Virus record (IMG/VR): IMGVR_UViG_3300021424_000234 | Span: 1-23,788 of that record | Length of the DNA: 23,788 nucleotides | Strand: one strand, 5' to 3' | Source of the DNA: a virus | Shown: positions 8,264 through 23,281 of the stretch, one piece after another | How the letters are laid out: every line of letters starts with the position of its first letter | How positions within the stretch are numbered: position 1 is the first letter of the stretch | Translations under genes and position numbers: made by a program | The notes under the pieces: model-generated | Databases searched by the model: none | Told to the model about the DNA's origin: nothing | What the model saw: only the letters and a program-made list of their open reading frames with translations

Positions 8264-8293
8264 TTGACACATACGCGCACCGTGGGCTAACTT
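8264..8293 (+). promoter_or_regulatory. Plus-strand promoter of the HA-HTH gene
   Basis: TTGACA (8264-8269), 18-bp spacer, TAACTT (8288-8293). The spacer contains TACGCGC (8272) and ACCGTGG, both hallmarks of the five intergenic arrays. The -10 ends 6 nt before the ATG, so the transcript would start at the start codon (leaderless). Confidence 0.75.
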
Positions 8294-8299
8294 ATTGAC

Positions 8300-8674
8300 A
8301 TGACCCGAGACGAACAGTTCCATACGCGCGTTCACATGATCGAGAAATACGCGCGAGAGAATGGCCACACAAATATCCCGCTGTCGCACAATACGCGCGG
8401 TGCGGCCGGCGAACGAGTCGCCATCGGCCGGTGGGCCAGTTACATCAAGAGTCGCTACCGAGCGGGGCTCTTGACCATCGAGCAGGCTCAGGCCTTCGAG
8501 CACATCCCTTCATGGGAGTGGGAGGCTCGTGCGCCTGGGGCGAAGATGAACATCGCTATGCACCGTGATGTCCACACGCTGCGCGGGATGCGACTGAGCC
8601 TACAGCAGATCGCGGATCGAGTAGGTTTGTCGCGTCAGCGCGTCCATCAAATCCTGAAAGGAAAGGCACAGTGA
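8300..8674 (+). CDS. Helicase-associated (HA) domain protein with C-terminal HTH
   Basis: 124 aa. Residues about 10-80 (MIEKYARENGHTNIPL, then IGRWASYIKSRYRAGLL and FEHIPSWEWEAR) match the helicase-associated domain (Pfam HA), which is normally repeated behind bacterial DEAD-like helicases and thought to bind DNA; here it stands alone. Residues about 94-121 (GMRLSLQQIADRVGLSRQRVHQILKG) form a typical helix-turn-helix. This suggests a two-part DNA-binding regulator. Three TACGCGCG motifs lie within its first 100 bp of coding sequence and one in its promoter, so autoregulation through that motif is plausible. There is no SD; the message is probably leaderless. It overlaps the membrane gene by GTGA. 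Confidence 0.78.
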   Translation: MTRDEQFHTRVHMIEKYARENGHTNIPLSHNTRGAAGERVAIGRWASYIKSRYRAGLLTIEQAQAFEHIPSWEWEARAPGAKMNIAMHRDVHTLRGMRLSLQQIADRVGLSRQRVHQILKGKAQ

Positions 8675-8940
8675 AGCAGTTGCGTTCAACCGACAAGCGC
8701 GAAGTCGAGTACGAGTGGGACGATGACGATGAACGGGTGTTCGTGCGTCGGGTCAATACGCCAGTCGGACTGATCCTCGCTGCGGTGACCGGTGCCTTCG
8801 AGGGCGTGCTGGCCTACGCGATTCTCCTCAACCTCAACGAGGCTGAGGTGCTGGCTGTCCAGCCACGGCTGTTGCCATTGGTCGGTGCCGGCGTTGCGTG
8901 GCGGTACTGGCGAACACTCGACAACTTTCTACGCAAGTAA
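8671..8940 (+). CDS. Small membrane protein
   Basis: 89 aa, GTG start overlapping the previous stop (GTGA) with SD AAAGG upstream. An acidic, basic-flanked N-terminus (EYEWDDDDERVFVRR) is followed by two hydrophobic segments, about 31-53 (VGLILAAVTGAFEGVLAYAI) and 65-78 (LLPLVGAGVAWRYW). Likely a two-pass inner-membrane protein with the acidic domain in the cytoplasm. No known family. Co-expression with a DNA-binding protein suggests an exclusion or membrane-signalling role, but this is only inference. Confidence 0.65.
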   Translation: MKQLRSTDKREVEYEWDDDDERVFVRRVNTPVGLILAAVTGAFEGVLAYAILLNLNEAEVLAVQPRLLPLVGAGVAWRYWRTLDNFLRK

Positions 8941-8947
8941 AGCACAA

Positions 8948-8973
8948 AGGGGCGAGCCTTTCGGCCCGCCCCT
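8948..8973 (+). terminator. Terminator of the plus-strand pair
   Basis: AGGGGCG (8948-8954) pairs with CGCCCCT (8967-8973), with GCC/GGC pairing in the loop. It starts 8 bp after the 8671 stop codon and could also stop transcription arriving from the right. No long U-tract. Confidence 0.7.
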
Positions 8974-8995
8974 CTGCGTCACCTACCACCAGTGA

Positions 8996-9160
8996 TCAGG
9001 TGTCCTTGACTGTTGTTGCCAAGAAGCGAATGTCGAGTAGTAAGTCCACCATGACTGGTGCCTCCACGACCGTCTTGTGCCCGATCTCGCTCAGGGCGAA
9101 ATCGATCTTGGCCAGCAAGGAATCGAGTGCTGTTACTTCTTGGTCGAGCGTGGGTTTCAC
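8996..9160 (-). CDS. Small hypothetical protein, 54 aa
   Basis: Starts at the GTG at 9160, overlapping the stop of the gene before (GTGA). Reads VKPTLDQEVTALDSLLAKID, then FALSEIGHKTVV and a hydrophobic end (MVDLLLDIRFLATTV): mostly helical, no motif recognised. Last of five overlapping genes from 10752. A 16-bp stretch near its end (9033-9048) also occurs at 324-339 in the WhiB gene. Confidence 0.55.
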   Translation of the reverse strand: MKPTLDQEVTALDSLLAKIDFALSEIGHKTVVEAPVMVDLLLDIRFLATTVKDT

Positions 9161-9498
9161 ACCGTCACCGCTGTGAGTACGTCGATCAGTTGGACGAGCG
9201 AGTCCTTGGCCTCGCCTCGATTGCCATACGCAGTGTACGCATCCTCGACGAACACATCCCACAGGGAGTCGTTGGCGATGATGTAGTCGTTGGCACCACC
9301 GTGGCCGGCGTTCTCGACCGTGGCAATGATCTTGTCGCCGGCCGTGAGACTGCCCACCCATGCGATCCCACGGGAGTGTTCCATCTCGTCCGTGATCTTG
9401 AGTGAGTATTTCCGCTCATCGAGCATGGAGTCGTCGAGCGGTTGCTGGACGTACATCCGGAACTCCTCGGGAATCGAGTTGTAGTTGTGCGTGGTCAT
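9157..9498 (-). CDS. Hypothetical protein, 113 aa
   Basis: The ATG at 9498 overlaps the stop of the 9495 gene (ATGA); an ATG six codons earlier lies inside that gene. SD GGAGAAG. The product opens MTTHNYNSIPEEFRMYV and has a central strand-rich part (RGIAWVGSLTAGDKIIATV) with HGGANDYIIAND, then a helical acidic end. Family not recognised. Part of the 10752-8996 operon. Confidence 0.62.
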   Translation of the reverse strand: MTTHNYNSIPEEFRMYVQQPLDDSMLDERKYSLKITDEMEHSRGIAWVGSLTAGDKIIATVENAGHGGANDYIIANDSLWDVFVEDAYTAYGNRGEAKDSLVQLIDVLTAVTV

Positions 9499-9617
9499 CG
9501 GTTGTTGCTTCTCCATTCGCAGTAAGCGTTGTAGGTCTCGTCGTTGTCAGGGTCGAGGCCGTTCGCCTCGCACCATTCGTCGTATGTCGGGTTCGGGTCG
9601 AACACTCGGATTGTCAT
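9495..9617 (-). CDS. 40-aa microprotein
   Basis: Read by hand: MTIRVFDPNPTYDEWCEANG is followed by LDPDNDETYNAYCEWRSNNR. It has SD GAGGAGAG 3-5 nt before the ATG at 9617 and ATGA overlaps with both neighbours, so it fills an otherwise unexplained gap exactly. Two cysteines 17 residues apart, acidic middle. No known family; the perfect fit in the operon is the main evidence. Confidence 0.72.
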   Translation of the reverse strand: MTIRVFDPNPTYDEWCEANGLDPDNDETYNAYCEWRSNNR

Positions 9618-9979
9618 GAACTCTCCTCGTCGTGCGTCAGTTGTAGTCCTGAAACGATGGACACCGGCTCGTATGCGTCCGTTGGGTCATCGCCCCACGA
9701 CAAACCTCCGGTAATCAACCAGTCGGTTCCGTTGATCCTCCGCACCTCCGTGTCACGAGAGCCATGCTCGTAGTACGAGTACACCTCTTCGATCTTGCCG
9801 ATGACATAGGAGACCGCCTCGGCATACTCCTCCTCGTCGGTCGCCTCATCAAACTCACGGGCGAAATACTCGGATAGAACATGGAGCAGAACCTCGGGTT
9901 CCATGGATTTGAGTTTGATGATTGCCTCGTCCTTGGTCTTGACAATCGGAGCCATGGCGATAGTCAGGTCGGCACTCAT
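9614..9979 (-). CDS. Hypothetical acidic protein, 121 aa
   Basis: ATG at 9979 overlaps the Api92-like gene stop (ATGA), with SD GAGGTGGGG. The first half is helical (KTKDEAIIKLKSMEPEVLL, then HVLSEYFAREFDEATDEEEY); the second half has an NGTDWLITGGLSWGDDPTDA segment that looks like a small beta domain. Unrecognised family. Operon position suggests a role with the Api92-like protein. Confidence 0.65.
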   Translation of the reverse strand: MSADLTIAMAPIVKTKDEAIIKLKSMEPEVLLHVLSEYFAREFDEATDEEEYAEAVSYVIGKIEEVYSYYEHGSRDTEVRRINGTDWLITGGLSWGDDPTDAYEPVSIVSGLQLTHDEESS

Positions 9980-10752
9980 GACCCCACCTCAAATGAGGCC
10001 ATGAGCGCAATCTGATTCTCGCAGTATTCGAGAACATCGGACTGGAGGTCACTCATCTTCTCGAAGTAGGAATCCCAGTCGATGTCGTCTTTCGCCTCGT
10101 GTTCGACAATCTCGGCGTACCGCTTCGTGTAGCGGTCGGGCAAATCCTTGTCATCGAACGAGGTGTAGAACATCGTCGCCACGCCGTTGTGGAAGTGCGA
10201 CGCACCGACATACAGGTTTGCTTCCTCTGTCACGGACACCTCGAACACCAAGTTCGGGAAGCGTTCGCTCATCTTGGAAACCAGCCCATCTGCCGGCGAC
10301 CACGCAGTCTCGTAGTACATCGAGACCTGTTCGTGCTCCTCGTCCAACTCGGGGTCGTTGTGCTCGAAGCGAGGTGCCCACTTGGTTCCCCACTCCTTGT
10401 TCGCCCAGTCGTACCAGTCGGTGTAGCCGGTCTCGGCGTATGCCTTCTGCCCAGCCTCGTAGAACTTGATGTTCTCGGCACAGAGTTCGTCGAAACGCTC
10501 CTGCGTCATCTGTCCCTCCGCCAACATCTCGACCCAATTGGGGTGCGGTTCAGGCGAGTAGGGGACAGGTGAGCGAGTGCCCATGAGTGCCTCGGGCATA
10601 GGGTGTGCTTTGGTCAGGTCGTAACTGATAGCCCCAGTCTCGGGGTCGGTGACCTTGATGAACTCCAGGAACTCCTGAAGGTCGTGGATGGCAGTCTGCT
10701 TGGACTCGGAAGTCGAGCGGACGGTCATCGAGTTGTATGCCCAGTTCGGCAT
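9976..10752 (-). CDS. Api92-like ferredoxin-fold phage protein
   Basis: 258 aa. The opening MPNWAYNSMTVRS is the signature start of the Api92/YubB-like family, small ferredoxin-like-fold proteins common in phages and plasmids (usually MPNWCxN). Further landmarks: AHPMPEAL, WYDWANKEWGTKWAP near 113-128 and YYETAWSPADGLVSKMSERF near 145-165, all in the expected order. The usual cysteine after MPNW is alanine here. Function is unknown across the family. First gene of a five-gene overlapping operon behind the promoter at 10807; SD AAAGGAG. Confidence 0.85.
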   Translation of the reverse strand: MPNWAYNSMTVRSTSESKQTAIHDLQEFLEFIKVTDPETGAISYDLTKAHPMPEALMGTRSPVPYSPEPHPNWVEMLAEGQMTQERFDELCAENIKFYEAGQKAYAETGYTDWYDWANKEWGTKWAPRFEHNDPELDEEHEQVSMYYETAWSPADGLVSKMSERFPNLVFEVSVTEEANLYVGASHFHNGVATMFYTSFDDKDLPDRYTKRYAEIVEHEAKDDIDWDSYFEKMSDLQSDVLEYCENQIALMASFEVGS

Positions 10753-10806
10753 GATGACTCCTTTGTAGGTAGGTACTTGATAGGTGTGGGTTTCCCCACA
10801 AACTCG

Positions 10807-10835
10807 ATCCTACACCAGCGGTGAGGCTGGGTCAA
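10807..10835 (-). promoter_or_regulatory. SigA-like promoter for the 10752-8996 operon
   Basis: Minus-strand TTGACC (10830-10835), 17-bp spacer, TAGGAT (10807-10812). It follows directly after the terminator of the VWA gene. Confidence 0.75.
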
Positions 10836-10838
10836 ATC

Positions 10839-10884
10839 GAGGGGTGGGGTGGGGACAAGGAGAACAAACCCTGCCCCACCCCTC
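10839..10884 (-). terminator. Terminator of the MoxR/VWA operon
   Basis: GAGGGGTGGGG (10839-10849) pairs perfectly with CCCCACCCCTC (10874-10884). It lies 7 bp after the VWA gene stop and runs into the GATTTGAC of the next promoter. Confidence 0.75.
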
Positions 10885-10890
10885 TCGCGG

Positions 10891-12360
10891 TCAGGACGCG
10901 GAGAGTTCCGAACCGACGATCTTGGTCGTGAGACGAACGCCCGACTTGGCGCGTCGCAACGCAGTCACAGCCTCACCCACGGTCGGAACCATGTGAACCT
11001 GATTCTTGCGAACGAAGCCGGCCACCTGCTTGCGAAGCGGAGCAGGTGCGAACCCGTCATCGGACACCGTGACATGACCGTCGCAGACCCACACCAACGG
11101 CTCGCCCTTCTTGCGAAGTTTGTTGGCGAACACCAAGGCAGGGTAGTCCACGCCGTTGCCACCGTTGCCGGAGCGAACCGCGCTACAGACCTTGCCACGG
11201 TCGGCGAGAATCCACACATTCGGGACACCCGACGAGTTGGGTCGGTGCGAGTAGCCCACGACCACACAGCCGGGAGCCTCGTTCACGAGAGCCATCACAT
11301 CGTCGTCGTTCAGCCTCATCGAGCCGGACTGGTCGATGAGAACGACACCGCCCTGCCCCTTGATCGTGCGGTCGAACACACGCTTGTCGGGGTCGGTCAG
11401 CAGTCGCTCCATTCGACGAGGCGAGACACCGATGTTGGTGGCCATACGCCGACGACCGAGGTTGCCCTTGACTCGACGAGTCAGCGGAACCGAACGATCG
11501 ACGATGAGTCGCGCCCAAGTCTTGCCACCGGCCGTCTTGGTCACAGCGTCGAGTTCCTCGTCGCTCGGCTCGCCGTCGCCTTCGTGTCCGTCCACGGAGT
11601 CGTCGTATTTGAGTAGAGCGTCCACGAGCGAAGCAAACCTGAGCGTGAACTTCGCCCCCTCAGGGAGGATGCGCTCGCCCTCGGCAAGAACGGTGTCGTG
11701 ATTGACGGGACGAGACGGCGTGCCGTCCGCCTTGTAGACCACGGGCGTGGTGCTAGCCATCTCACGACGAGCGTAGGTGACCGCACGAGAGTCACGCACA
11801 GGGCCGAAACGCTTGATCTCGGACTTCCACGAATCGAGCAGAGCCTTCTCGACACGCTTGGCCTTGTCAGCCATTTCGGGACTCACGGTACGCATACCAC
11901 GAAGCACATCCTTGCAGGCCTTGGTTCCGGCGGTAGCCGCGATGAACAGGACGGTGTTGTTCCAGTCCTTGTTCTCGGCCAGTCGCTTGCCAGTCTGTGA
12001 CTCCGACCCGTCACGCAGATTGTCCATGTCGAAGCCGGCGAGCGAGCAGAGCGTGTTCACACGAAATTCCTCCGAAGCCCGAATGGCCTCCGGCGAAATC
12101 GAGAACCCGTCGAACGAAGCCATCGACTCCGGGGACACCTTGGCGTGCATCATCTCGTGGGCGCGAACCGCACGGGAGAGGTCGTCGTCGCCGTAGGGAA
12201 CCGTCATGAGACGCTCGATACGGTTGGTGAACGCCTCGCCACGAGTGGCGTTGCCTTCCTTGACAGTCCACGGGCCTTGGGGGGAGTCCTCACGAGTGAG
12301 CCACTCCGGCATGGCCACCCCCTTGGGGGTGACCACACCAGCGTTGATCTTGGTGGTCAC
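10891..12360 (-). CDS. VWA-domain protein with N-terminal zincin-like motif
   Basis: 489 aa, GTG start at 12360 overlapping the ATPase stop (GTGA) with SD GAGGAGG. The N-terminal part has HEMMH at 68-72 and a downstream SEEFRVN (about 96-102), the HExxH plus glutamate arrangement of a gluzincin-type metallopeptidase. The C-terminal half is a von Willebrand A domain with the MIDAS motif DQSGS (343-347) and later acidic residues (VDYP, VCDGH) that can complete metal binding. Such two-domain proteins pair with MoxR ATPases in bacteria to act as metal-dependent chaperone or protease systems. Partner gene lies immediately upstream. Substrate unknown; could remodel a host or phage complex. Confidence 0.82.
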   Translation of the reverse strand: MTTKINAGVVTPKGVAMPEWLTREDSPQGPWTVKEGNATRGEAFTNRIERLMTVPYGDDDLSRAVRAHEMMHAKVSPESMASFDGFSISPEAIRASEEFRVNTLCSLAGFDMDNLRDGSESQTGKRLAENKDWNNTVLFIAATAGTKACKDVLRGMRTVSPEMADKAKRVEKALLDSWKSEIKRFGPVRDSRAVTYARREMASTTPVVYKADGTPSRPVNHDTVLAEGERILPEGAKFTLRFASLVDALLKYDDSVDGHEGDGEPSDEELDAVTKTAGGKTWARLIVDRSVPLTRRVKGNLGRRRMATNIGVSPRRMERLLTDPDKRVFDRTIKGQGGVVLIDQSGSMRLNDDDVMALVNEAPGCVVVGYSHRPNSSGVPNVWILADRGKVCSAVRSGNGGNGVDYPALVFANKLRKKGEPLVWVCDGHVTVSDDGFAPAPLRKQVAGFVRKNQVHMVPTVGEAVTALRRAKSGVRLTTKIVGSELSAS

Positions 12361-13082
12361 TTGGAGACCTCCTCGATCTTGATGGCGTCCATGATGGACT
12401 TGGCGTTCTTGCCGAACACCAGCGTCGCGGCTCGCTCCGAACCCAGCGTTCCACGCAACTTGGCGTATGACTGGAAGGTACGAATCGAGTACCGTCGCTC
12501 GTCGTCTGCGTCCACGCTGGCTGAGGCCACCTCACGCAAGTCCTCCGGCAGGGCCAACAGGGCGTTCGGGTGTGGGCGGTTGATACGAATAGCCACGGGG
12601 AACCGATCCCTGAGAGCGGTCGGGAGTTCCCTCATGTCCTCGATGTTCGTCGTCATGATGACGCTGAATCCGGGGAGGGGACGGAAGGTCTGCTTGGTCG
12701 CAGGGTGCGTCCAAGAGGCCGACTCCGGCGAGTCGAACATGGCGAGCAGGAGCGACAACACATCGCCCGACGCACGGTCGATCTCGTCTGCCACGACGCG
12801 ACCGCCGTGAGAGCCGTTGCCCTTCCAAGCACGGAGAACCGCGCCCTCGTTCCAAGTCCACTCGTTGCCCGTGGGCTGGAAGTGTCCGGTCACATCGGCC
12901 GAGGTCATCTCCTCGTTACAGACGACGCGGAACGCTCCGGTGGTTACATCGCCCATCGTGAGACCGGCGAAGGTCTTGCCAGTCCCCGGAGGGCCGAACA
13001 GCACGAGGCGATCGACACCCGAGGCGAGGCAGTCGTGTACATCTTGCCAGCACTGAGGCATGGCGGTATTGGTGGTGGTCAT
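12357..13082 (-). CDS. MoxR-type AAA+ ATPase
   Basis: 241 aa. Walker A GPPGTGKT (30-37), Walker B VVADEID (96-102), sensor 1 TTN (144-146) and arginine finger region ALRDRF (156-161) are all present. The segment DVTGHFQP plus WNEGAVLRAW is typical of the MoxR/CbbQ/NorQ group, which work with a VWA-domain partner. That partner is the next gene, overlapping by GTGA. It is shorter than many MoxR proteins (about 300 aa) because the C-terminal lid is reduced. Together they probably form an ATP-driven remodelling machine. SD GAAAGG; leader of the common type. Confidence 0.88.
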   Translation of the reverse strand: MTTTNTAMPQCWQDVHDCLASGVDRLVLFGPPGTGKTFAGLTMGDVTTGAFRVVCNEEMTSADVTGHFQPTGNEWTWNEGAVLRAWKGNGSHGGRVVADEIDRASGDVLSLLLAMFDSPESASWTHPATKQTFRPLPGFSVIMTTNIEDMRELPTALRDRFPVAIRINRPHPNALLALPEDLREVASASVDADDERRYSIRTFQSYAKLRGTLGSERAATLVFGKNAKSIMDAIKIEEVSK

Positions 13083-13132
13083 TGAGTTTGCCTTTCGGTA
13101 GTAGGTAGGTGGAGTGGTTGGCTCCGAATGAA

Positions 13133-13161
13133 GTCTCCCACATTCCCCCCACCCCTGTCAA
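13133..13161 (-). promoter_or_regulatory. Weak promoter candidate for the MoxR/VWA operon
   Basis: A good minus-strand TTGACA (13156-13161) is placed as in the other promoter units, but the -10 region (GGAGACTT around 13131-13138) fits poorly and there is no palindrome. Position and GATTTGACA context support it. Confidence 0.45.
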
Positions 13162-13193
13162 ATCGACGGGGTGAGGGGTCATGCGGAAAGGAG

Positions 13194-13215
13194 CCTGACA
13201 TGACCAAATGTCAGG
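13194..13215 (-). terminator. Hairpin after the 13228 gene
   Basis: CCTGACAT (13194-13201) pairs with ATGTCAGG (13208-13215), loop 6 nt, starting 13 bp after the stop codon in the direction of transcription. Could equally be a protein-binding palindrome. Confidence 0.6.
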
Positions 13216-13227
13216 TTGTGAGGGGTG

Positions 13228-13617
13228 TCAGGAGCGGTCGCCCCGAACACCCTTCTGCCCGTACACACGCACTTGCGTGGAATACGAGATCGTGACGGCC
13301 TGCTCGACCACGGGGGTCGGGACGAGGCCGGTCTCCACGGCACTGTCGAACGCCGACGAATCGACGGTCTGCTTCAGCACCATGTTGAGGACGGTCGCCG
13401 GCAGGTTCGCCAGCAGACTGTCCATGTCGAATGAGCGACGGGGACGGTTCTCCACGGCGACACGCACCTTGTCGGTGGTCTCGTAGTGGTCGATTCCTGC
13501 GTCGTCGAACAGGGCGACGAGCAGAGCCTCCGTGTCTCGCTTGGCCTGCTCGATCTCCTTCTCCTTGTCACGGAGAACCAAGAGATCGGCAATAGCACGG
13601 TCGATGGTAAGGGACAT
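13228..13617 (-). CDS. Coiled-coil phage protein (paralogue of 21957)
   Basis: 129 aa. The N-terminus is a helical, charged segment (LRDKEKEIEQAKRDTEALLV) likely to form a coiled coil; then FDDAGIDHYETTDKVRVAVE, RRSFDMDSLL, and a C-terminal strand ending TISYSTQVRVYG. The protein at 21957 has the same order: EQAKARAEAMLQQAYAKAGV, VVDGTKVAIV, YDPTRLAELV, TYQQVRVSK. The two are therefore diverged duplicates. Function unknown. It has an unusual control region: four tandem promoters over 260 bp and the first TACGCGC array upstream. Confidence 0.75.
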   Translation of the reverse strand: MSLTIDRAIADLLVLRDKEKEIEQAKRDTEALLVALFDDAGIDHYETTDKVRVAVENRPRRSFDMDSLLANLPATVLNMVLKQTVDSSAFDSAVETGLVPTPVVEQAVTISYSTQVRVYGQKGVRGDRS

Positions 13618-13811: not shown

Positions 13812-13840
13812 ACTCTATCAGACCATACAGGGCTGGTCAA
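13812..13840 (-). promoter_or_regulatory. Tandem promoter 3 of 4
   Basis: TTGACC (13835-13840), 17 bp, TAGAGT (13812-13817). No palindrome at the -10; weaker copy. Confidence 0.62.
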
Positions 13841-13879: not shown

Positions 13880-13908
13880 AACCTATCAGCCCTGCCACCC
13901 TCTGTCAA
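13880..13908 (-). promoter_or_regulatory. Tandem promoter 4 of 4
   Basis: TTGACA (13903-13908), 17 bp, TAGGTT (13880-13885). Next to TACGCGC array A; no -10 palindrome. Confidence 0.7.
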
Positions 13909-13930
13909 ATCGAGGGGACACCACAAAGAT

Positions 13931-14196
13931 TACGCGCGCGTGGATCGTCATGTGCCTACCGTGGCCTACATACGCGCGAAGTGGGAGACATACGCGCGAA
14001 TCTGCCGGCCCATTACATACGCGCGAATCGTGAGGCCGCGTAAGACATACGCGCGAACGCCGCAGCCCCGCTGGTCCGTGGCCGCGCGAGCCCCGCTGGA
14101 TCGAGTGCGAGCGGGGCTCCAGGGCAGCGCAGTGTGCGGGGCTCCAGAATACGAGAAGCCCCGCCGTCCAGAAAGGAGGAAAGAAACGGCGGGGCT
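13931..14196. repeat. Array A: TACGCGC repeats plus octamer inverted-repeat module
   Basis: TACGCGC starts at 13931, 13971, 13991, 14018 and 14048, all in the same orientation, with GTGCCTACCGTGG at 13952-13964. Octamers follow: AGCCCCGC at 14064 and 14089 (25 bp apart), GCGGGGCT at 14111 and 14136 (25 bp apart), then an extra AGCCCCGC at 14157 paired with GCGGGGCT at 14189 (11-bp stem). No gene is credible between 13618 and 14297. The plus-strand ORF starting at 14208 overlaps the WhiB gene and looks random. Confidence 0.85.
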
Positions 14197-14297
14197 CTCG
14201 GACACACATGGAGGTTGTGCGTCGAGCACACCCTAACCGAGAACGCCGGCCGTCATCCAGCAACACCCGAACATTTGTTCGGATAATGGCTGGCTAT

Positions 14298-15868: not shown

Positions 15869-15897
15869 AATCTATCAGGGGCAGGGGTCGCTGTCAA
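15869..15897 (-). promoter_or_regulatory. SigA-like promoter for 15549
   Basis: TTGACA (15892-15897), 17 bp, TAGATT (15869-15874) in the loop of CCCCTGA/TCAGGGG. The stop codon of the 15899 gene is the TGA of TGATTTGACA. Confidence 0.82.
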
Positions 15898-15898
15898 A

Positions 15899-16264
15899 TC
15901 AGAGGAGGTACTCCTCCTCGTCCTCGTCGTCCTCGTCCTCGCTGATGAGCACGATCTCGACACTGGCGATGCGCCCATTGACGTACGTGGCGTACACGGG
16001 GTAGGTGCCGTCGCCGTAGCCCGATGCGAACGCGATGCCGGTATCGAACGTGCCCAACTGCCCAGCACTGTCCTCATTGAGCGTCGCGCCACACGCGCCG
16101 TTGTAGGTGAACGGGTACTTGCCGTCCACGGCGTTTGCGGGGGCGTACGGCTGGTCGGCCCAGTCGTCGGCCTTGATGTAGCACGGGTCGCAGATCATGA
16201 GTTGGCCGGAGTCCACGCCCACGTGTCCGATGAGCACGGTTCCCGTGATGTTGGTGATGGTCAT
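15899..16264 (-). CDS. DUF4241-like phage protein
   Basis: 121 aa. GHVGVDSGQLMICDPCYI near residues 13-30 and GIAFASGYGDGTYPVYA near 75-92 are the hallmarks of a strand-rich family (DUF4241-like) found in phages and bacteria; the VDSGQ, CDP and GDGxYPV motifs are all here. It ends in an extreme acidic tail (SEDEDDEDEEE). Function unknown. The stop codon is built into the promoter of the next gene. SD GAGGAAC. Confidence 0.72.
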   Translation of the reverse strand: MTITNITGTVLIGHVGVDSGQLMICDPCYIKADDWADQPYAPANAVDGKYPFTYNGACGATLNEDSAGQLGTFDTGIAFASGYGDGTYPVYATYVNGRIASVEIVLISEDEDDEDEEEYLL

Positions 16265-16303: not shown

Positions 16304-16332
16304 AATCTATCAGCGGTAGGTGGGTCTGTCAA
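16304..16332 (-). promoter_or_regulatory. SigA-like promoter for 15899
   Basis: TTGACA (16327-16332), 17 bp, TAGATT (16304-16309), arms CCACTGA/TCAGCGG with one mismatch. Confidence 0.82.
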
Positions 16333-16333
16333 A

Positions 16334-16370
16334 TCGAGGGGGAGTGGGGGGCTTGCGCCCCCCGCCCTCG
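16334..16370 (-). terminator. Terminator after 16372
   Basis: GGGGGGC-TTGC-GCCCCCC (16346-16363) inside an outer CGAGGG/CCCTCG pair. Same TTGC tetraloop as 20274 and 21377. Confidence 0.75.
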
Positions 16371-16371
16371 C

Positions 16372-16942: not shown

Positions 16943-16971
16943 AACCTATCACCCACAGTGTGCCGTGTCAA
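16943..16971 (-). promoter_or_regulatory. Proximal promoter for 16372
   Basis: TTGACA (16966-16971), 17 bp, TAGGTT (16943-16948); no -10 palindrome. Confidence 0.75.
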
Positions 16972-17023
16972 ATCGACGCTCCGTGGAGGGGATTCGGGGG
17001 TGTCGGTTTCCCCGACAACACTG

Positions 17024-17052
17024 AACCTATCAGACCGTAGTGAGCGTGTCAA
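17024..17052 (-). promoter_or_regulatory. Distal promoter for 16372
   Basis: TTGACA (17047-17052), 17 bp, TAGGTT (17024-17029) between CTGA and TCAG. Confidence 0.78.
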
Positions 17053-17107
17053 ATCGACGCTCCGTGGAGGGGGGAGAGAGGAACACGCACACGCGCGCGC
17101 GAGCGCA

Positions 17108-17315
17108 TACGCGCCCATGTGCCTACCGTGCGTGCGCATACGCGCGGTTCAGGATACGCGCGGTGCTCGGGTGTCGGATACGCGCGGTTGGTGGCCGGCG
17201 TCGAGGGCCTCGGTTACGCGCCGCAGCCCCGTAAGGATCGAGCGATTCGCAGCCCCGCTAGACAGACTCCTCCCCTGGGAAAGCGGGGCTTCCGTCTTGA
17301 GTTGAGTGCGGGGCT
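17108..17315. repeat. Array B: TACGCGC repeats plus octamer module
   Basis: TACGCGC at 17108, 17139, 17155, 17179 and 17215; GTGCCTACCGTG at 17119-17130. Octamers: AGCCCCG at 17225 and AGCCCCGC at 17251 (26 bp), GCGGGGCT at 17283 and 17308 (25 bp). The last octamer lies in the spacer of the plus-strand promoter for the 17332 gene. Confidence 0.85.
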
Positions 17316-18266: not shown

Positions 18267-18295
18267 AATCTATCAGGCGCAGGGGGAGCGGTCAA
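18267..18295 (-). promoter_or_regulatory. SigA-like promoter for 18049/17812
   Basis: TTGACC (18290-18295), 17 bp, TAGATT (18267-18272) between CCTGA and TCAGG. Stop codon of 18297 lies in TGATTTGACC. Confidence 0.8.
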
Positions 18296-18296
18296 A

Positions 18297-18656
18297 TCAG
18301 ACCGTGGTGGACTCGGGCCGCATCCGGAAGATGTCGTTCAGCGGGAGCACTCCCCGGATGACGCTCTCCGGCACGTCGTGGTTGTCGCCGTCGTACTCGC
18401 CGGCTTCGTTGAGACCGCCCACGACCACGCAGGGACCGTAGAGCGGACGAGCGAACAGGAGCGATGCGACGAGGTTGGGCGCCATGCCATCGGTCAAGCC
18501 GGTGTCATTGACGTACCCGACGATCGCACCGTCACGGGACCGTACGCAGTCGAACCAACCGCCGACCATCGAGTTGATGTCGATGTGCTCGGGCGCAAGG
18601 TTGCGGACATTGACGAGTCCTCGCTCGGAGTCGTCGTGGATGAACAGGATGTTCAT
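18297..18656 (-). CDS. DUF3846-like phage protein
   Basis: 119 aa from the ATG at 18656, SD GAAAGGAAA. The core INSMVGGWFDCVRS, GYVNDTGLTDGMAPNLVASLL and GPCVVVGG follows the order of the DUF3846 family (VGG, then N-E/D-G, then N-x-A-T/S, then G-x-VVVG), a short domain common in phages. Function unknown. Single gene behind the promoter at 18700; its stop is merged with the next promoter. Confidence 0.72.
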   Translation of the reverse strand: MNILFIHDDSERGLVNVRNLAPEHIDINSMVGGWFDCVRSRDGAIVGYVNDTGLTDGMAPNLVASLLFARPLYGPCVVVGGLNEAGEYDGDNHDVPESVIRGVLPLNDIFRMRPESTTV

Positions 18657-18699
18657 TGGGTTTCCTTTCTGTTGTTGGTGGGGTTGCCCCCCACCACTG

Positions 18700-18728
18700 A
18701 ATCTATCAGTGGCAGGGGGCTGAGTCAA
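18700..18728 (-). promoter_or_regulatory. SigA-like promoter for 18297
   Basis: TTGACT (18723-18728), 17 bp, TAGATT (18700-18705) with perfect arms CCACTGA/TCAGTGG. Stop codon of 18730 is embedded. Confidence 0.82.
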
Positions 18729-18729
18729 A

Positions 18730-19050
18730 TCAGCCGTAGACGAGCGTCCCGAACACAGCCCACTGAAGGACCACGTCGGCGGCGTCCGAATCGAAGTCGT
18801 CGTCCTGGATCGCCCGGGCGACAACCCGGTAGCCGGGCTTCTCCTCCTTGACGAACTGCTCCGCCAGCCGGCGGATGGCGGTAGCCGACATCGTCGTGAA
18901 GATGGCACCGTCCTCGTCGTTCGGATCGTCCATCCCGATGGTGATGGCATCGTCGCCGTCCACATCCAACTGGCGATACCAGTCGTACGTGTCCGCTCCT
19001 GAGAAGACGAGGTGGTCCACCACGTCCTGAGTGCTTGCGTTCCAGCGCAT
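18730..19050 (-). CDS. Hypothetical acidic protein, 106 aa
   Basis: ATG at 19050, SD GAAAGGAG. Sequence MRWNASTQDVVDHLVFSGAD, then DAITIGMDDPNDEDGA and AIRRLAEQFVKEEKPGYRV. Acidic loops (DDPNDEDG, DDDFDSDAAD) alternate with strands and helices. Family not recognised; it might be a small regulatory or inhibitor protein but nothing in the sequence proves it. Single-gene unit followed directly by the next promoter. Confidence 0.65.
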   Translation of the reverse strand: MRWNASTQDVVDHLVFSGADTYDWYRQLDVDGDDAITIGMDDPNDEDGAIFTTMSATAIRRLAEQFVKEEKPGYRVVARAIQDDDFDSDAADVVLQWAVFGTLVYG

Positions 19051-19096
19051 TGTGCGCTCCTTTCTTGTTGGGGAGCCGTTCTCCCCGACAACCCTG

Positions 19097-19125
19097 AACC
19101 TATCAGCCCCAGGGGTCGCTGTCAA
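19097..19125 (-). promoter_or_regulatory. SigA-like promoter for 18730
   Basis: TTGACA (19120-19125), 17 bp, TAGGTT (19097-19102) between CTGA and TCAG. Confidence 0.8.
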
Positions 19126-19174
19126 ATCGGGCCGAGGTGGTGGAGGGAGAGAGGAACGGGCGCACGCACGCACA

Positions 19175-19368
19175 TACGCACACCGTGCGCACGCGCGAGG
19201 GCATACGCGCTGTGCCGGCATACGCGCCATCCTGGGATACGCGCGGTTTTGATACGCGCGGTTTTGATACGCGCGGTTTTGGCCGGCAGCCCCGCTAGTT
19301 ATTTGCTTCGGCAGCCCCGCATCTAGCGATGTGCGCGGGGCTCTCGACCCTCGTATGGGGACGGGGCT
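19175..19368. repeat. Array C: TACGCGC repeats plus octamer module
   Basis: TACGCGC at 19204, 19221, 19238, 19253 and 19268, with a variant TACGCAC at 19175 beside ACCGTGCG. Three copies of GATACGCGCGGTTTT are in perfect tandem (19237-19281). Octamers: AGCCCCGC at 19288 and 19313 (25 bp), GCGGGGCT at 19335 and CGGGGCT at 19362 (26 bp). There is no gene from 19126 to 19423. Confidence 0.85.
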
Positions 19369-19423
19369 CTAGCCCAGATGGTGGGCGGGCGAGTGGGGCC
19401 AGGTTGCCCTGACCCCCTTCACC

Positions 19424-19654
19424 TCATGCTACGGCTGAGTCGCCGATGGCGCCGGCATTGAGCGCGACGAGTATCTCCTGAACCGCCATGAGAAACTCGA
19501 TGTCCGTGGCGGGCCTGCTGTCGCCGGCTTCGTCGTAGACGAGGTAGGTCCTGTCGATCAGGTGCTCATCGAGCGCGTGCTCTAGAGCCTCCGTGATCGA
19601 GCAGAGAACCCACTTGTCGTCGAGGATGTCCTGTGCGAGCGCGCCCAGGCTCAT
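19424..19654 (-). CDS. Hypothetical small protein, 76 aa
   Basis: ATG at 19654 overlaps the stop of 19651 (ATGA) with SD GGAGGTG. Sequence MSLGALAQDILDDKWVLCSI, then EALEHALDEHLIDRTYLVYD and helical EFLMAVQEILVALN. Largely helical and acidic, unrecognised. Second gene of the 19896 unit. Confidence 0.65.
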   Translation of the reverse strand: MSLGALAQDILDDKWVLCSITEALEHALDEHLIDRTYLVYDEAGDSRPATDIEFLMAVQEILVALNAGAIGDSAVA

Positions 19655-19896
19655 CGCGCCACCTCCGTGTTGTTGAGGCCCCACGAGATGGCCTTCATGA
19701 GGTACACGGCCAACTCGTCGGCCACGTCGGACAGGCGTACGATGTCGTCGCCGGTGTCGATGTCGGCCCACTCGGTGGGCGAGACGAACTCGTCGTTCTG
19801 AAGAACAGCCACCTCTTTGCGGCCGAACGACTCCACGATGGAGAACATCGCGCCGTTGGGCAGGATGGGCTGGATGCGCTGGATGTGGTCGGACAT
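19651..19896 (-). CDS. Hypothetical small protein, 81 aa
   Basis: ATG at 19896 with SD AGAAAGAAGGAA. The N-terminal half is strand-like (LPNGAMFSIVESFGRKEVAV, LQNDEFVSP) and the C-terminal half helical (IVRLSDVADELAVYLMKAI). No family recognised. Overlap with 19424 suggests a functional pair. Behind the promoter with the longest palindrome in the window. Confidence 0.65.
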   Translation of the reverse strand: MSDHIQRIQPILPNGAMFSIVESFGRKEVAVLQNDEFVSPTEWADIDTGDDIVRLSDVADELAVYLMKAISWGLNNTEVAR

Positions 19897-19928
19897 GATT
19901 CCTTCTTTCTGTTTGATGGGGTTGGGCC

Positions 19929-19967
19929 CCCTGCTACTGAATCTACAGTAGCAGGGGAGGTTGTCAA
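19929..19967 (-). promoter_or_regulatory. SigA-like promoter with a 12-bp palindrome (19651/19424)
   Basis: TTGACA (19962-19967), 16 bp, TAGATT (19940-19945). CCCCTGCTACTG and CAGTAGCAGGGG pair perfectly, with the -10 hexamer alone in the loop. The stop codon of 19969 is the TGA of TGAGTTGACA. Confidence 0.85.
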
Positions 19968-19968
19968 C

Positions 19969-20253
19969 TCAGTCTTCGTACTCGTCGAAGCAGGAGTCGA
20001 TGAACGCTTGGAGGTGGTGACCCTCCGCGATCGCCCACGCCGGCGCGTGAGTCGAGTCACGGTAGGTGATTCCGTCCGGCAACTCGATGAGCGTGTTCGG
20101 CTCGTCCATGACGATCGCGTCGATGGCCTTCATGCACGGCTCGATCATGCTGAGCGGAACCGGCGGGTAGTGGTTCGACGTGAGGTGCCACGTGAGTTGC
20201 TGTTCGAGGCTGATCGGCATTCCTGCCATCTCGGTTGCTGATTGGTGTCCCAT
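19969..20253 (-). CDS. Conserved actinophage protein, 94 aa
   Basis: Reads LEQQLTWHLTSNHYPPVPLS, then CMKAIDAIVMDEP, LPDGITYRDST and AIAEGHHLQAFID; this LTWHLTSNHYPPVP pattern recurs in many mycobacteriophage-type accessory genes. Function not known. Start at 20253 has SD AGAAAGAGAA. No promoter of its own: it follows a hairpin after 20306 and is probably read from the promoter at 20659 by partial readthrough. Confidence 0.75.
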   Translation of the reverse strand: MGHQSATEMAGMPISLEQQLTWHLTSNHYPPVPLSMIEPCMKAIDAIVMDEPNTLIELPDGITYRDSTHAPAWAIAEGHHLQAFIDSCFDEYED

Positions 20254-20273
20254 TGTTTCTCTTTCTGTTTGGT

Positions 20274-20297
20274 GGCCGGGGGCTTGCGCCCCCGGCC
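20274..20297 (-). terminator. Hairpin after 20306
   Basis: Perfect 10-bp stem, GGCCGGGGGC/GCCCCCGGCC, with TTGC loop. No U-tract. Confidence 0.75.
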
Positions 20298-20305
20298 GGG
20301 ATTGG

Positions 20306-20470
20306 TCAGAGGGTGATCCTGATGACCTGGACTTTGCTGGAGCCTTCCTCCAGGATCAGGTTGGCAACTTCTTGGGCCTGCTCGTAGTTGTAGAACAAGT
20401 CCACGAAGTTGCTCTCGTCGTCCGTCAGGACGAGGTAGTTGTCGCCAGCGCGGAGGTTGATGGTGTGCAT
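20306..20470 (-). CDS. Small protein, 54 aa
   Basis: MHTINLRAGDNYLVLTDDES, then FVDLFYNYEQAQEVANLILE and KVQVIRITL: strand, strand, helix, strand, as in a compact alpha/beta domain. Starts at 20470, five bp after the zinc-finger gene stop. Unrecognised family. Longer frames back to 20674 run through that upstream gene and are rejected. Confidence 0.65.
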   Translation of the reverse strand: MHTINLRAGDNYLVLTDDESNFVDLFYNYEQAQEVANLILEEGSSKVQVIRITL

Positions 20471-20475
20471 GGTTG

Positions 20476-20619
20476 TCAGTCTCCCCAGTCGAGGTCGCGC
20501 TCGCGCTCGCGCACTCCGTCTGCCCAAGCGCATAAGCACTCGTCGCAGAGCACAGTGTCGAACGACTTTCTGTAGTGGCCTTGCTCTTCCTGGCAGTGTT
20601 CGCAGGTGTCGGTGGTCAT
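20476..20619 (-). CDS. Zinc-ribbon microprotein, 47 aa
   Basis: Read by hand: MTTDTCEHCQEEQGHYRKSF, then DTVLCDECLCAWADGVRERE and RDLDWGD. Two CxxC pairs 17 residues apart make a complete zinc ribbon, ending in a charged helix. SD GAAAGGAAA six nt before the ATG at 20619 and promoter at 20659 support it. Nucleic-acid or protein binding likely, target unknown. Confidence 0.75.
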   Translation of the reverse strand: MTTDTCEHCQEEQGHYRKSFDTVLCDECLCAWADGVRERERDLDWGD

Positions 20620-20658
20620 GGTTTCCTTTCTGAGTCGGCGGGGTTGCCGACAAACCTG

Positions 20659-20687
20659 AACCTATCAGTCCCAAGGGTCGGTGTCAA
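20659..20687 (-). promoter_or_regulatory. SigA-like promoter for 20476/20306(/19969)
   Basis: TTGACA (20682-20687), 17 bp, TAGGTT (20659-20664) with CCTGA/TCAG arms. Confidence 0.8.
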
Positions 20688-20696
20688 ACCGGCCAT

Positions 20697-20906
20697 GTGC
20701 CAACCGTGGCCCTATAGATAGGGGCCGGCCATAGATAGGGGGCCGGGCCGGCCCTTCATAGATGGGGCCGGCAGGGTGGAGATACGCGCCAATCTCGTCG
20801 GCCCCAGGGATACGCGCCGATCCTGAGATACGCGCGATCGCGCGCGCTGCAGCCCCGGCAGAACGAATGCACGCGGGGCTCTGCTGCTATTGTAGTAAGC
20901 GGGGCT
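20697..20906. repeat. Array D: TACGCGC repeats plus octamer module
   Basis: GTGCCAACCGTGG (20697-20709), then three ATAGAT(A)GGG-GCCGG units (20713-20770, the first within a CCCTAT/ATAGGG palindrome), TACGCGC at 20783, 20811 and 20829, AGCCCCG at 20851, and GCGGGGCT at 20873 and 20899 (26 bp apart). One forward octamer is missing compared with the other arrays. The second GCGGGGCT abuts the start of the 20910 gene. Confidence 0.85.
20885..20893 (+). promoter_or_regulatory. Extended -10 for 20910
   Basis: TGCTATTGT gives TGN plus TATTGT (20888-20893), 16 nt before the ATG. The octamer GCGGGGCT lies where the spacer would be; no clear -35. Confidence 0.5.
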
Positions 20907-20909
20907 TCC

Positions 20910-21119
20910 ATGGACGACGACGCGACACCACTCGACATTCTTCGACTGCCCTGGGTGCGCGTATCACACGAGGTCAAGGAGAGCCGGCTCGCGATCTGTA
21001 TGGACTGCGATCGACTCAATGCGCTGAGCCAGTGCCGTGAGTGCGGGTGCGTGATGCCACTCAAGGTGCGTGTCCCCTCGGCCCGATGCCCACTCGGTAA
21101 GTGGGACGCTCAAGCCTGA
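20910..21119 (+). CDS. Zinc-ribbon protein, plus strand
   Basis: 69 aa. Residues about 30-60 hold CMDCDRLN, CRECGC and CPLGKW, a cysteine pattern (C-x2-C, C-x2-C-x-C, C) that I know from small zinc-binding phage proteins with a final CPxGKW. An acidic start (MDDDATPLDILRLPW) precedes it. No SD of note. Like 17332 it is a lone plus-strand gene directly behind an octamer module, so the two may be controlled alike. Confidence 0.75.
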   Translation: MDDDATPLDILRLPWVRVSHEVKESRLAICMDCDRLNALSQCRECGCVMPLKVRVPSARCPLGKWDAQA

Positions 21120-21135
21120 GGGGACTACACCTCGA

Positions 21136-21342
21136 TCACTGCTTGGCGAGAATCTGACGCTCGGCCTGACCGATCATTCGGTTCAGGTCGGCCCGCAGAG
21201 TGTGGATGTCGTTCAGAGCCTGACGGGTCGAGGCCTCGGGGAAGATTCGGTACAGGTGATCATCGAGCGCTCGCTCGTAGTCCCAGAGCAGGGTCTCGAT
21301 GTTCTGAAGGGTCTCGGTGGTGGTCGTGATGGTGATGTTCAT
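21136..21342 (-). CDS. Helical small protein, 68 aa
   Basis: MNITITTTTETLQNIETLLW, then DYERALDDHLYRIF and helical LNDIHTLRADLNRMIGQAER. A short threonine-rich strand is followed by helices that could form a coiled coil. SD GAGAGGAA. No clear promoter; probably reached from the promoter at 21888 through the hairpin at 21377. Unrecognised family. Confidence 0.65.
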   Translation of the reverse strand: MNITITTTTETLQNIETLLWDYERALDDHLYRIFPEASTRQALNDIHTLRADLNRMIGQAERQILAKQ

Positions 21343-21376
21343 GTGTTCCTCTCGGGGTGATAGTTGATGTTGGGGT

Positions 21377-21402
21377 GGCTAGGGGGCTTGCGCCCCCCAG
21401 CC
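21377..21402 (-). terminator. Hairpin after 21413
   Basis: GGCT-A-GGGGGC-TTGC-GCCCCC-C-AGCC, one mismatch in the stem, same TTGC loop as 16346 and 20284. Confidence 0.72.
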
Positions 21403-21412
21403 TCGGAGTGGG

Positions 21413-21847
21413 TCAGAAGGCGACCTCGGCCTCTGCCCACCAGAACTCGATTGCGTCGGCAAGCGGGCCTGCTCCGGCTTCCTCCATGATGTCCGGCGTG
21501 TTCTCGCCCTCGCGACGCATTACGGTCGTCCACTCGGAGCCGTTGTAGGCGACGGTGATTCGCACTCGGATACGATCAGGACTCTGGCTCGGGGGCGTGT
21601 CCGTGGGCGTGTCCGTGATCGGAGCCGCCCAGCCCGTACACACGAAGCCCACGGCGGTCGCCCCACGGGGGCGCGTGACGGCGGTGTCGCCGTCGAACAT
21701 GTCGTACGGGTCGTGCGACTGTCCGATCATCCAAGCCCCATCGGGGTCGGTGACATACAGGCGACTGTACATGTCGAACTGGTTGTCGCCCAACTCTCGG
21801 TGGACAAGTTCGTCGATCGTGCTCGCGATCTGGGTGATGGTGGTCAT
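21413..21847 (-). CDS. Hypothetical protein, 144 aa
   Basis: ATG at 21847, SD AAAAAGGAAA. A helical start (ITQIASTIDELVHRELGD), then strand-rich sequence (MYSRLYVTDPDGAWMIGQ), a proline/threonine linker (TDTPTDTPPSQSP) and a C-terminal domain (IRVRITVAYNGSEW, then ADAIEFWWAEAEVAF). Two-domain accessory protein of unknown function; no family recognised. Confidence 0.65.
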   Translation of the reverse strand: MTTITQIASTIDELVHRELGDNQFDMYSRLYVTDPDGAWMIGQSHDPYDMFDGDTAVTRPRGATAVGFVCTGWAAPITDTPTDTPPSQSPDRIRVRITVAYNGSEWTTVMRREGENTPDIMEEAGAGPLADAIEFWWAEAEVAF

Positions 21848-21887
21848 GGTTTCCTTTTTCTGCTGTTGGGGTTTCCCCTCACCTCTG

Positions 21888-21916
21888 AATCTATCAGGGG
21901 TAAGGGAGACTGTCAA
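21888..21916 (-). promoter_or_regulatory. SigA-like promoter for 21413
   Basis: TTGACA (21911-21916), 17 bp, TAGATT (21888-21893), arms CCTCTGA/TCAGGGG with one mismatch. Confidence 0.82.
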
Positions 21917-21929
21917 ATCGGGGGAGGGT

Positions 21930-21947
21930 GGGGGGCTTTCGCCCCCC
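21930..21947 (-). terminator. Terminator after 21957
   Basis: GGGGGGC-TTTC-GCCCCCC, directly followed by the promoter at 21888-21916. Confidence 0.75.
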
Positions 21948-21956
21948 GTCCCTCGG

Positions 21957-22316
21957 TCAGACCTTGCTGACTCGCACCTGCTGGTAGGTGGTCAGCGTGG
22001 TCACGGCTTCCGCCACCTCGGGGGCGATGTTCCCGAGGGTCAGAGCCGCCTTCCACTTCGTGCCGTCCACTTCCTGCTTCGTGACGCTGGCGAACACCTC
22101 GCTGGTGACGAGTTCCGCCAGTCGGGTCGGGTCGTACTTAGGACGCTCGCCCCTGACGATGGCGACCTTCGTGCCGTCCACGACTGCGAAGTCCACGCCG
22201 GCTTTGGCGTAGGCCTGCTGGAGCATGGCTTCGGCTCGGGCTTTCGCCTGCTCCGCTTCCTCGCAGGCCTTGCGGGCGTTCAGGTAGTCGATGACTGACT
22301 GGGTGAGTGTGGTCAT
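21957..22316 (-). CDS. Coiled-coil phage protein (paralogue of 13228)
   Basis: 119 aa from the ATG at 22316; the long proline-rich frame before it is not coding. Helical N-terminus (ACEEAEQAKARAEAMLQQAY), then AGVDFAVVDGTKVAIVRGER, YDPTRLAELV and C-terminal TTYQQVRVSKV. Same order of segments as 13228. Function unknown; two copies in one array suggest dosage or divergent partners. SD AGAAAGAGAGAAA; read from the promoter at 22625 through 22366. Confidence 0.75.
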   Translation of the reverse strand: MTTLTQSVIDYLNARKACEEAEQAKARAEAMLQQAYAKAGVDFAVVDGTKVAIVRGERPKYDPTRLAELVTSEVFASVTKQEVDGTKWKAALTLGNIAPEVAEAVTTLTTYQQVRVSKV

Positions 22317-22357
22317 GGGTTTCTCTCTTTCTGGGTTGGTGAGATGGGTTCGGGGTG

Positions 22358-22378
22358 GGTGGGGCTTATCGCCCCACC
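22358..22378 (-). terminator. Hairpin over the end of 22366
   Basis: GGTGGGGC-TTATC-GCCCCACC; the loop contains the TAA stop of the 22366 gene, so the last codons form half the stem. Confidence 0.7.
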
Positions 22379-22578
22379 AACTCCCGAGTGAGGGCGGTGC
22401 GGAAGTTGCTCTCCGCCGTGGCGAGCAGGGCTGAGGCCTCCCACTTCTCGGTGAGCGTGGAGTCAGCGTCGGCGTACACCTCGGCACAGTAGGAACGAGC
22501 CTGAGCGAGGTACGCTCGGGGCATGACGAGCCGAGCGTCGGCCTCGGGGGACAGGGTGGGCATGGGCATGGTGGGCAT
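22366..22578 (-). CDS. Small helical protein, 70 aa
   Basis: ATG at 22578, SD GAAAGGAAG. MPTMPMPTLSPEADARLVMP is followed by alanine-rich helices (AYLAQARSYCAEVYADAD, then EKWEASALLATAESNFRTAL). Not recognised. Possible helical bundle; first gene before the coiled-coil protein 21957. Confidence 0.62.
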   Translation of the reverse strand: MPTMPMPTLSPEADARLVMPRAYLAQARSYCAEVYADADSTLTEKWEASALLATAESNFRTALTRELVGR

Positions 22579-22624
22579 GGCTTCCTTTCGGGGTTGGTGG
22601 TGGGTGGTGTTCCCTCCACCCCTG

Positions 22625-22653
22625 AACCTATCAGGGGTAGAGGGGACTGTCAA
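22625..22653 (-). promoter_or_regulatory. SigA-like promoter for 22366/21957
   Basis: TTGACA (22648-22653), 17 bp, TAGGTT (22625-22630), perfect CCCCTGA/TCAGGGG arms. The stop codon of 22650 is inside the -35. Confidence 0.82.
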
Positions 22654-22916
22654 ATCGGTCGGCGGTAGACCCAGCAGTAGTGCCGGATGATGTGCCGCTT
22701 CCAGATGAGCGACTCCTCACGGAGGTCGGGCGAGGTGGCGAACCGACGGGCGAGGTCGAACACCTGACGGGTCGTGAGTCCGACGCTGGTGGTGCGTTCG
22801 CCCACGTTCACGGCCATGAGTTCGTCACAGGCCTGACGAATCTCGTCCCGCAGGTCGGGCGGGCAGACGCTCAGGTCGTCGGACTGGATGGTGGTGAGTA
22901 CCTGCCTCCACAGCAT
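22650..22916 (-). CDS. Hypothetical protein, 88 aa
   Basis: ATG at 22916, SD AAAGGAG. MLWRQVLTTIQSDDLSVCPP, then LRDEIRQACDELMAV, VGLTTRQVFDLARRFA and a basic aromatic end (WKRHIIRHYCWVYRRPI). The second helix pair has some resemblance to a helix-turn-helix, but the match is weak. Single gene whose stop codon overlaps the next -35. Confidence 0.62.
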   Translation of the reverse strand: MLWRQVLTTIQSDDLSVCPPDLRDEIRQACDELMAVNVGERTTSVGLTTRQVFDLARRFATSPDLREESLIWKRHIIRHYCWVYRRPI

Positions 22917-22959
22917 GGTGGCTCCTTTGCTTCGGTCGGCGGTGTTGCCGACAAACCTG

Positions 22960-22988
22960 AACCTATCAGCCCTAAGGAGCCGAGTCAA
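22960..22988 (-). promoter_or_regulatory. SigA-like promoter for 22650
   Basis: TTGACT (22983-22988), 17 bp, TAGGTT (22960-22965) with CCTGA/TCAG. Confidence 0.8.
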
Positions 22989-23032
22989 ATCGTGCCATCT
23001 AGCAGGGCAAACGCACCGAAACCCCTGCTCTT

Positions 23033-23281
23033 GTGCCTACCGTGGCTCGGTCTGCTAGGTTGGGGGGCATAGATAGGACAGGACGAGCCGGTGGGATACG
23101 CGCGGTTTCAGCCGGTTCCGTACATACGCGCCGGTCTGGCGATACGCGCGCTCACGGCGAGCGAGGATACGCGCGGTGGGCGAGAGCCCCGTATTCTCTG
23201 CCGGCCCTCGAGCCCCGCTGGTCACCAGCGTGAGCGGGGCTTACGACCTCGATGTGTCGTTACAATGATCGAGGCGGGGCT
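23033..23281. repeat. Array E: TACGCGC repeats plus octamer module
   Basis: GTGCCTACCGTGG (23033-23045), CATAGATAGG (23069), TACGCGC at 23097, 23125, 23143 and 23168, AGCCCCG at 23185 and AGCCCCGC at 23211 (26 bp), GCGGGGCT at 23234 and 23274 (40 bp, the only long spacing). A TACAAT lies between the last two. There is no credible gene from 22989 to 23307. Confidence 0.85.

Follow-up and report, generated by a model that had tools for sequence, protein, structure and literature searches.

TACGCGC arrays at early promoters of a probable actinobacteriophage: candidate operators of a single regulator

The DNA analysed here, a virus record of 23,788 bases (the window), matches a section of G001, an 81-kb contig from the same phage, at 99.98% identity. 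It contains the HA-HTH and RHH genes, five intergenic arrays of the heptamer TACGCGC, a further cluster of this motif at the HA-HTH gene and a series of putative promoters (Table 1). MAGs of Actinomycetota and of Gammaproteobacteria each contain one relative of HA-HTH, and the relatives of the helicase are mostly actinobacteriophages; judged from these placements, the host would be actinobacterial and probably lives in freshwater. Elsewhere on G001, a tryptophan-halogenase-like gene is located at 46726-48201 on the minus strand (phrog_2928, E=8e-96).

Table 1. Genes, TACGCGC clusters and putative transcription signals of the window, and DnaA-box-like clusters of the relative L206 (last line)
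Feature	Position	Strand	Remarks
RHH gene (CopG/HicB-like, zinc-ribbon-like tail)	1043-1354	-	Start codon inside GCGCGTATG (1354-1360); second candidate binder
Putative promoter GATTTGAC-N-GATAGATT	8210-8244	-	Leftward, adjoins HA-HTH cluster
Putative HA-HTH promoter TTGACA...TAACTT (TTGACAcaTACGCGCaccgtgggcTAACTT)	8264-8293	+	One TACGCGC in spacer; read by eye
TACGCGC cluster, 4 copies	8272-8398	+	HA-HTH promoter spacer (8272) and first codons (8323, 8348, 8392)
HA-HTH gene, 124 aa	8300-8674	+	Pfam HA domain and sigma-region-4-type HTH; candidate binder
Putative promoter GATTTGAC / GATAGGT	13880-13911	-	Array 13931-14054; tandem -35s at 13836, 13745, 13677
TACGCGC array, 5 copies	13931-14054	+	
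Terminator-like AGCCCCGC...GCGGGGCT hairpins	14056-14200	-	Gene side of array 13931-14054
Putative promoter GATTTGAC / GATAGGT	17024-17055	-	Array 17108-17221; second copy at 16967
TACGCGC array, 5 copies	17108-17221	+	
Putative promoter GATTTGAC / GATAGGT	19097-19128	-	Array 19204-19274
TACGCGC array, 5 copies	19204-19274	+	Copies 15-17 bp apart
Putative promoter GGTTTGAC / GATAGGT	20660-20690	-	Array 20783-20835
TACGCGC array, 3 copies	20783-20835	+	
Putative promoter GATTTGAC / GATAGGT	22960-22991	-	Array 23097-23174
TACGCGC array, 4 copies	23097-23174	+	
TTATCCACA clusters (L206)	126-200, 809-892, 1602-1716, 2483-2493, 3864-3905	T strand	CGAACANNTGTTCG dyads nearby

Exact counting gave 33 copies of TACGCGC on the plus strand of the window and three on the minus strand (1230, 4309 and 20957), that is, 36 in all where 2.7 would be expected, the expectation being taken from 100 dinucleotide-preserving shuffles with the strands pooled (mean 2.67, maximum 7). 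When k-mers were counted by strand, as the first-pass annotation had proposed, TACGCGC proved to be the most strand-biased 7-mer of the window. That annotation had reported at least 32 plus-strand and about three minus-strand copies where about two were expected, with 22 of them in five intergenic arrays and four in the promoter and first 100 bp of the HA-HTH gene; its counts and coordinates are borne out. The other seven plus-strand copies (198-4306) are isolated, within or at genes. Neighbouring copies within clusters lie 15-51 bp apart, with 25 neighbour pairs no more than 60 bp apart where 3.0 are expected at random, and their copy-to-copy helical phasing is weak. Because only exact matches were taken, the seven core positions are necessarily invariant; beyond them, an eighth base, T, is conserved in 31 of 33 copies, C or G mostly stands on either side, and little else is kept.

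The extended contig carries two further arrays (G001 9760-9823 and 10702-10781), which brings the intergenic arrays to seven and, with the HA-HTH cluster, the places to eight, over 17 kb. In the direction of transcription the site reads GCGCGTA; the early strand of G001 has 41 copies of it, of which 33 fall within the early region (8.4-28 kb). The motif is far from equally common elsewhere in the phage, the 46-kb late region having TACGCGC once per strand. Its orientation is 33:2 in the leftward early region and 0:5 in G001 1-8.4 kb, where the genes are oppositely directed (Fisher p=3e-5). Since the orientation flips where the genes flip, it follows transcription and not the strand, so that the fixed orientation proposed at first reading holds relative to the former and fails relative to the latter. 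Thirty of the 33 early copies fall outside called genes, the remaining three being within the HA-HTH coding sequence (p=1e-6, with genes called by a simple script).

The intergenic arrays share a common module, in which terminator-like AGCCCCGC...GCGGGGCT hairpins are followed by the array, usually by an ACGGT(A/G/T)GGCACATG-like element, and then by GATTTGAC-N17-GATAGGT. To the right of the other intergenic arrays the hairpins are arranged as at 14056-14200. Promoters and terminators were assigned by eye or by pattern and are thus putative; with this reading each of the arrays stands upstream of a promoter on the minus strand, as had been claimed, the array at G001 9760 having a less typical one. 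The distance from the last array copy to the -35 element ranges from 23 to 124 bp. The -10 sequence GATAGGT is found at six of seven array promoters versus one of six others (p=0.03), the internal promoters without arrays having mostly GATAGAT. The HA-HTH cluster, which covers the promoter and first 100 bp of that gene, also lies upstream of the leftward promoter at 8237. Single copies occupy the spacers of three putative promoters, that of HA-HTH itself and two minus-strand ones at G001 3039 and 5360, and the RHH gene contains further copies at 1286 (+) and 1230 (-) in addition to that at its start. An RNA-level element was considered and rejected on the absence of excess folding in the two arrays tested, of any Rfam family and of tRNA.

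Other structures accompany the putative promoters. Those without arrays on the minus strand (15869-15900, 16304-16335, 18267-18298, 18700-18731 and 21888-21919) have an inverted repeat across the -10 element (for example CCCCCTGCCACTGATAGATTCAGTGGTGGGGG), with compensating changes in its arms, which is possibly an overlapping terminator or attenuator. Leaders after array promoters (minus strand, e.g. 16980-17010 and 19080-19100) carry a short TTGTCGG...CCGACA hairpin directly after the -10 element, whose arms are altered yet still pairing at 19121. The ACGGTAGG element of the array promoters resembles TTGACGGTGGTGGAA, a conserved one-stranded motif of L006, L111, L130, L166 and many relatives.

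Comparison with related phages separates what is kept from what changes. G003, with about 72% identity over the aligned blocks, maintains the module layout with GTGCGCGTR in place of TACGCGC. Its 11 copies, all on one strand, comprise arrays of four and three, a pair in the HA-HTH region, a single copy where RHH starts and another at a different place. The HA-HTH promoter and first codons hold four motif copies in the window, five in L004 and at least two in G003; all three copies in the HA-HTH coding sequence are kept in L004, versus 21% of 7-mers in that stretch. In each of the five motif-bearing sequences examined (the window, L004, L023, L254 and G003) the RHH start falls within the motif or directly at it, and no motif was seen at this start among the more distant relatives listed. 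Viral contigs were also scanned for triple TACGCGC or triple GTGCGCGTR and judged for module-likeness from the number of copies, the strand bias and homology; only those of this phage and of G003 looked module-like, and most of five other strong matches, viewed singly, were short-period tandem repeats.

In a more distant relative, L206 (44% identical in a 489-aa protein), this slot, here flanked by CGGGGCT hairpins and ACGGTGG promoters, is occupied by clusters of TTATCCACA, the DnaA-box consensus (12+6 exact copies in 20 kb). No DnaA C-terminal domain was found in its 69.5-kb contig. This suggests that array identity changes between lineages while the module stays, and the presence of DnaA-box arrays in the L206 slot makes the reader of this slot appear swappable. 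It is possible, as a tentative proposal, that related freshwater actinophages share one early-promoter module whose enhancer-like array (TACGCGC, GTGCGCGTR or DnaA boxes) occupies a swappable slot and is read by a lineage-specific DNA-binding protein. We know of no description of such a slot in phages; a limited literature search found none, and nothing was found on DnaA-box arrays in phages. Dispersed one-strand motifs of other HA-HTH phages (ACTAGATAAGT, CTAATAGATAACTC, GTGTAGGTAAGT and AAGGATAATGTAA) are real, and were rejected as homologues of the arrays for being placed differently and absent from the HA-HTH promoters of these phages. Separately, lineage-specific and strongly one-stranded motifs of 9-14 bp are dispersed in 15-40 copies in L166, L155, L148, L143, L107 and relatives (ACTAGATAAGT, GAGTAGATAAG, GGTGTAGGTAAGT, CTAAAGGATAATGTAA and CTAATAGATAACTC), some of them adjoining terminator hairpins or stop codons.

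The TACGCGC copies are very probably the binding sites of one regulator. The earlier suggestion of sites for one protein is well supported by their transcription-fixed orientation, the constant promoter context, the lack of excess RNA folding, the copies in -35/-10 spacers and the conservation in the relative of about 72% identity. We consider it fairly probable that the arrays are operators of a single early-gene regulator with dual action depending on site position. Such a sequence-specific protein would read an asymmetric repeated site, C/G-GCGCGTAT-C/G in the direction of transcription. At the starts of early units, three to five copies would hold it in the interval from the preceding terminator to a promoter whose -10 element (GATAGGT) looks weaker, and from this upstream position it might activate or insulate. 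Against this reading, the variable array-promoter distance is awkward for direct contact with the polymerase, and the weak helical phasing counts too. Single copies in -35/-10 spacers (HA-HTH and the two promoters outside the window) or at the RHH start codon would instead serve repression or block transcription. A single regulator could in this way act on early promoters, on some other promoters and on its own level.

The most likely binder, with a chance a little short of even, is HA-HTH, which as a monomer would read the site with its two domains. In its favour, its own promoter and first codons bear the motif in the window, L004 and G003, and a fairly confident structural model (mean pLDDT 85, pTM 0.59) shows two separate domains of three helices each, the second being sigma-4-like, an arrangement that would suit a monomer on an asymmetric site, as for the cluster A repressor (PMC9283540). 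Against HA-HTH as the reader, as suggested earlier, its recognition helix SRQRVHQI is invariant or nearly so in about 35 relatives without the motif, and RHH bears the motif at its start as well. The HA-HTH promoters of motif-less relatives have a CGAACNNNNGTTCG dyad or no such site. Among 50 distinct sequences upstream of HA-HTH, 21 have the dyad 28-47 bp before the start, with 20 occurrences elsewhere in 781 kb; it is seen in L006, L104, L107, L148, L166 and others, and resembles an actinobacterial SOS box. Proteins of this type, combining HA and a sigma-4-like HTH, are encoded at no fewer than 238 viral loci, and to our knowledge no role has been described for them; comparison of HA-HTH with annotated phages gave no match, a search of its profile and model against the PDB gave no Rep-like match, and a literature search found nothing on HA-domain HTH regulators.

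RHH is an unlikely binder. Its family assignment is weak to moderate, with weak matches to ParG, NikA and TacA-type proteins, and its strand QVLIR, like the HA-HTH helix, is conserved across motif-less relatives. A host protein or an unrecognised phage protein is a serious possibility, less probable than HA-HTH. The O-like initiator was rejected as binder: the N-terminal part shows no conservation and is possibly non-coding, and no clade-specific DNA-binding part was found in it. Other small genes of the array-led units showed no recognisable DNA-binding domain, save a weak Arc-like match at G001 34679-35113.

Among other readings of the arrays, stoperators proper are rather unlikely: a lysogeny repressor bound to the arrays would halt elongating polymerase between units and shut the promoters it overlaps, in the manner of cluster A sites (PMC9283540, PMC6550527). 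The asymmetry of the sites, their one transcription-relative orientation and the copies at a regulator gene and inside the operon at the RHH start would agree with this. However, the arrays come directly after terminator-like hairpins and ahead of a promoter, so that little elongation would remain to be halted there, and neither an integrase nor a cluster A repressor homologue was found in the subset of proteins searched. It is quite unlikely that the arrays are sites of a host regulator, or a sink titrating a host protein, as DnaA boxes may be in L206. The host DnaA-box consensus in the slot of L206, yet no DnaA domain in that phage, would fit such a role, and no protein both recognisably DNA-binding and restricted to motif-bearing phages was found among the phage proteins searched; against it, several relatives have the motif on the two regulator genes that the phage itself encodes, and it matches no host motif known to us. 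Centromere-like or replication sites, bound by an RHH partition-type protein or, as iterons, by an initiator, with regulation secondary, are improbable: the RHH matches, the O-like initiator and the DnaA boxes of L206 could be so read, but eight arrays over 17 kb are each tied to a promoter, no ParA was found among the proteins searched and the initiator has no clade-specific DNA-binding part. A chance, codon-usage or repeat-expansion artefact without function is very improbable, for although slippage could have produced the near-identical 15-17 bp units of array 19204-19274 and codons may account for the isolated copies within 198-4306, eight separate arrays, whose inter-copy sequences are unrelated, hold the same position at each unit start, the layout is kept in G003 and the counts far exceed those of shuffles.

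Operators of one early-gene regulator remain the preferred reading, and the eight array-led sites together with HA-HTH and RHH would make up a concrete, testable regulon. Phages of the abundant freshwater Actinobacteria are known almost only from sequence. If the slot truly swaps between sites for a phage factor and DnaA boxes, it would show the re-wiring of phage early control.

The operators and stoperators of cluster A mycobacteriophages (L5, TipsytheTRex) are the closest known system. They number more than 20 asymmetric sites in one transcription-relative orientation, with copies at the regulator's promoter (PMC9283540, PMC6550527), and are bound by a monomeric repressor with two DNA-binding domains (PMC9283540). 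The sites described here likewise exceed 20 per genome, keep one orientation relative to transcription and include copies over the promoter of a regulator gene. Unlike the single cluster A sites dispersed in short intergenic spaces, they form arrays of three to five upstream of promoters and have a short core of 8 bp. The arraying at unit starts, and the lack of a Rep-like match when HA-HTH was compared with the PDB and a part of the genes was searched, are the reasons for not filing them as cluster A members. The start-associated sequences (SAS) of cluster K phages are also repeated, mostly in one orientation, and tied to gene starts, lying at the ribosome-binding sites of many genes (PMC3203893); one TACGCGC copy does contain a start codon, but the arrays stand upstream of promoters and the sequence is different. 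In omega/ParG-type arrays (pSM19035, TP228), short repeats near promoters are read by an RHH protein (PMC5016525), and here a candidate RHH of weak to moderate assignment is encoded with sites at its own gene start; unlike those contiguous or regular repeats, the copies are spaced, weakly phased, in one orientation and spread over eight places. Replication iterons, initiator-specific repeats at one origin, differ from promoter-tied arrays at eight places. Finally, the DnaA-box arrays of L206 and L100 share the whole module of CGGGGCT hairpins, array, ACGGTGG element and promoter, and differ in having TTATCCACA as their motif and in carrying their sites in mixed orientation.
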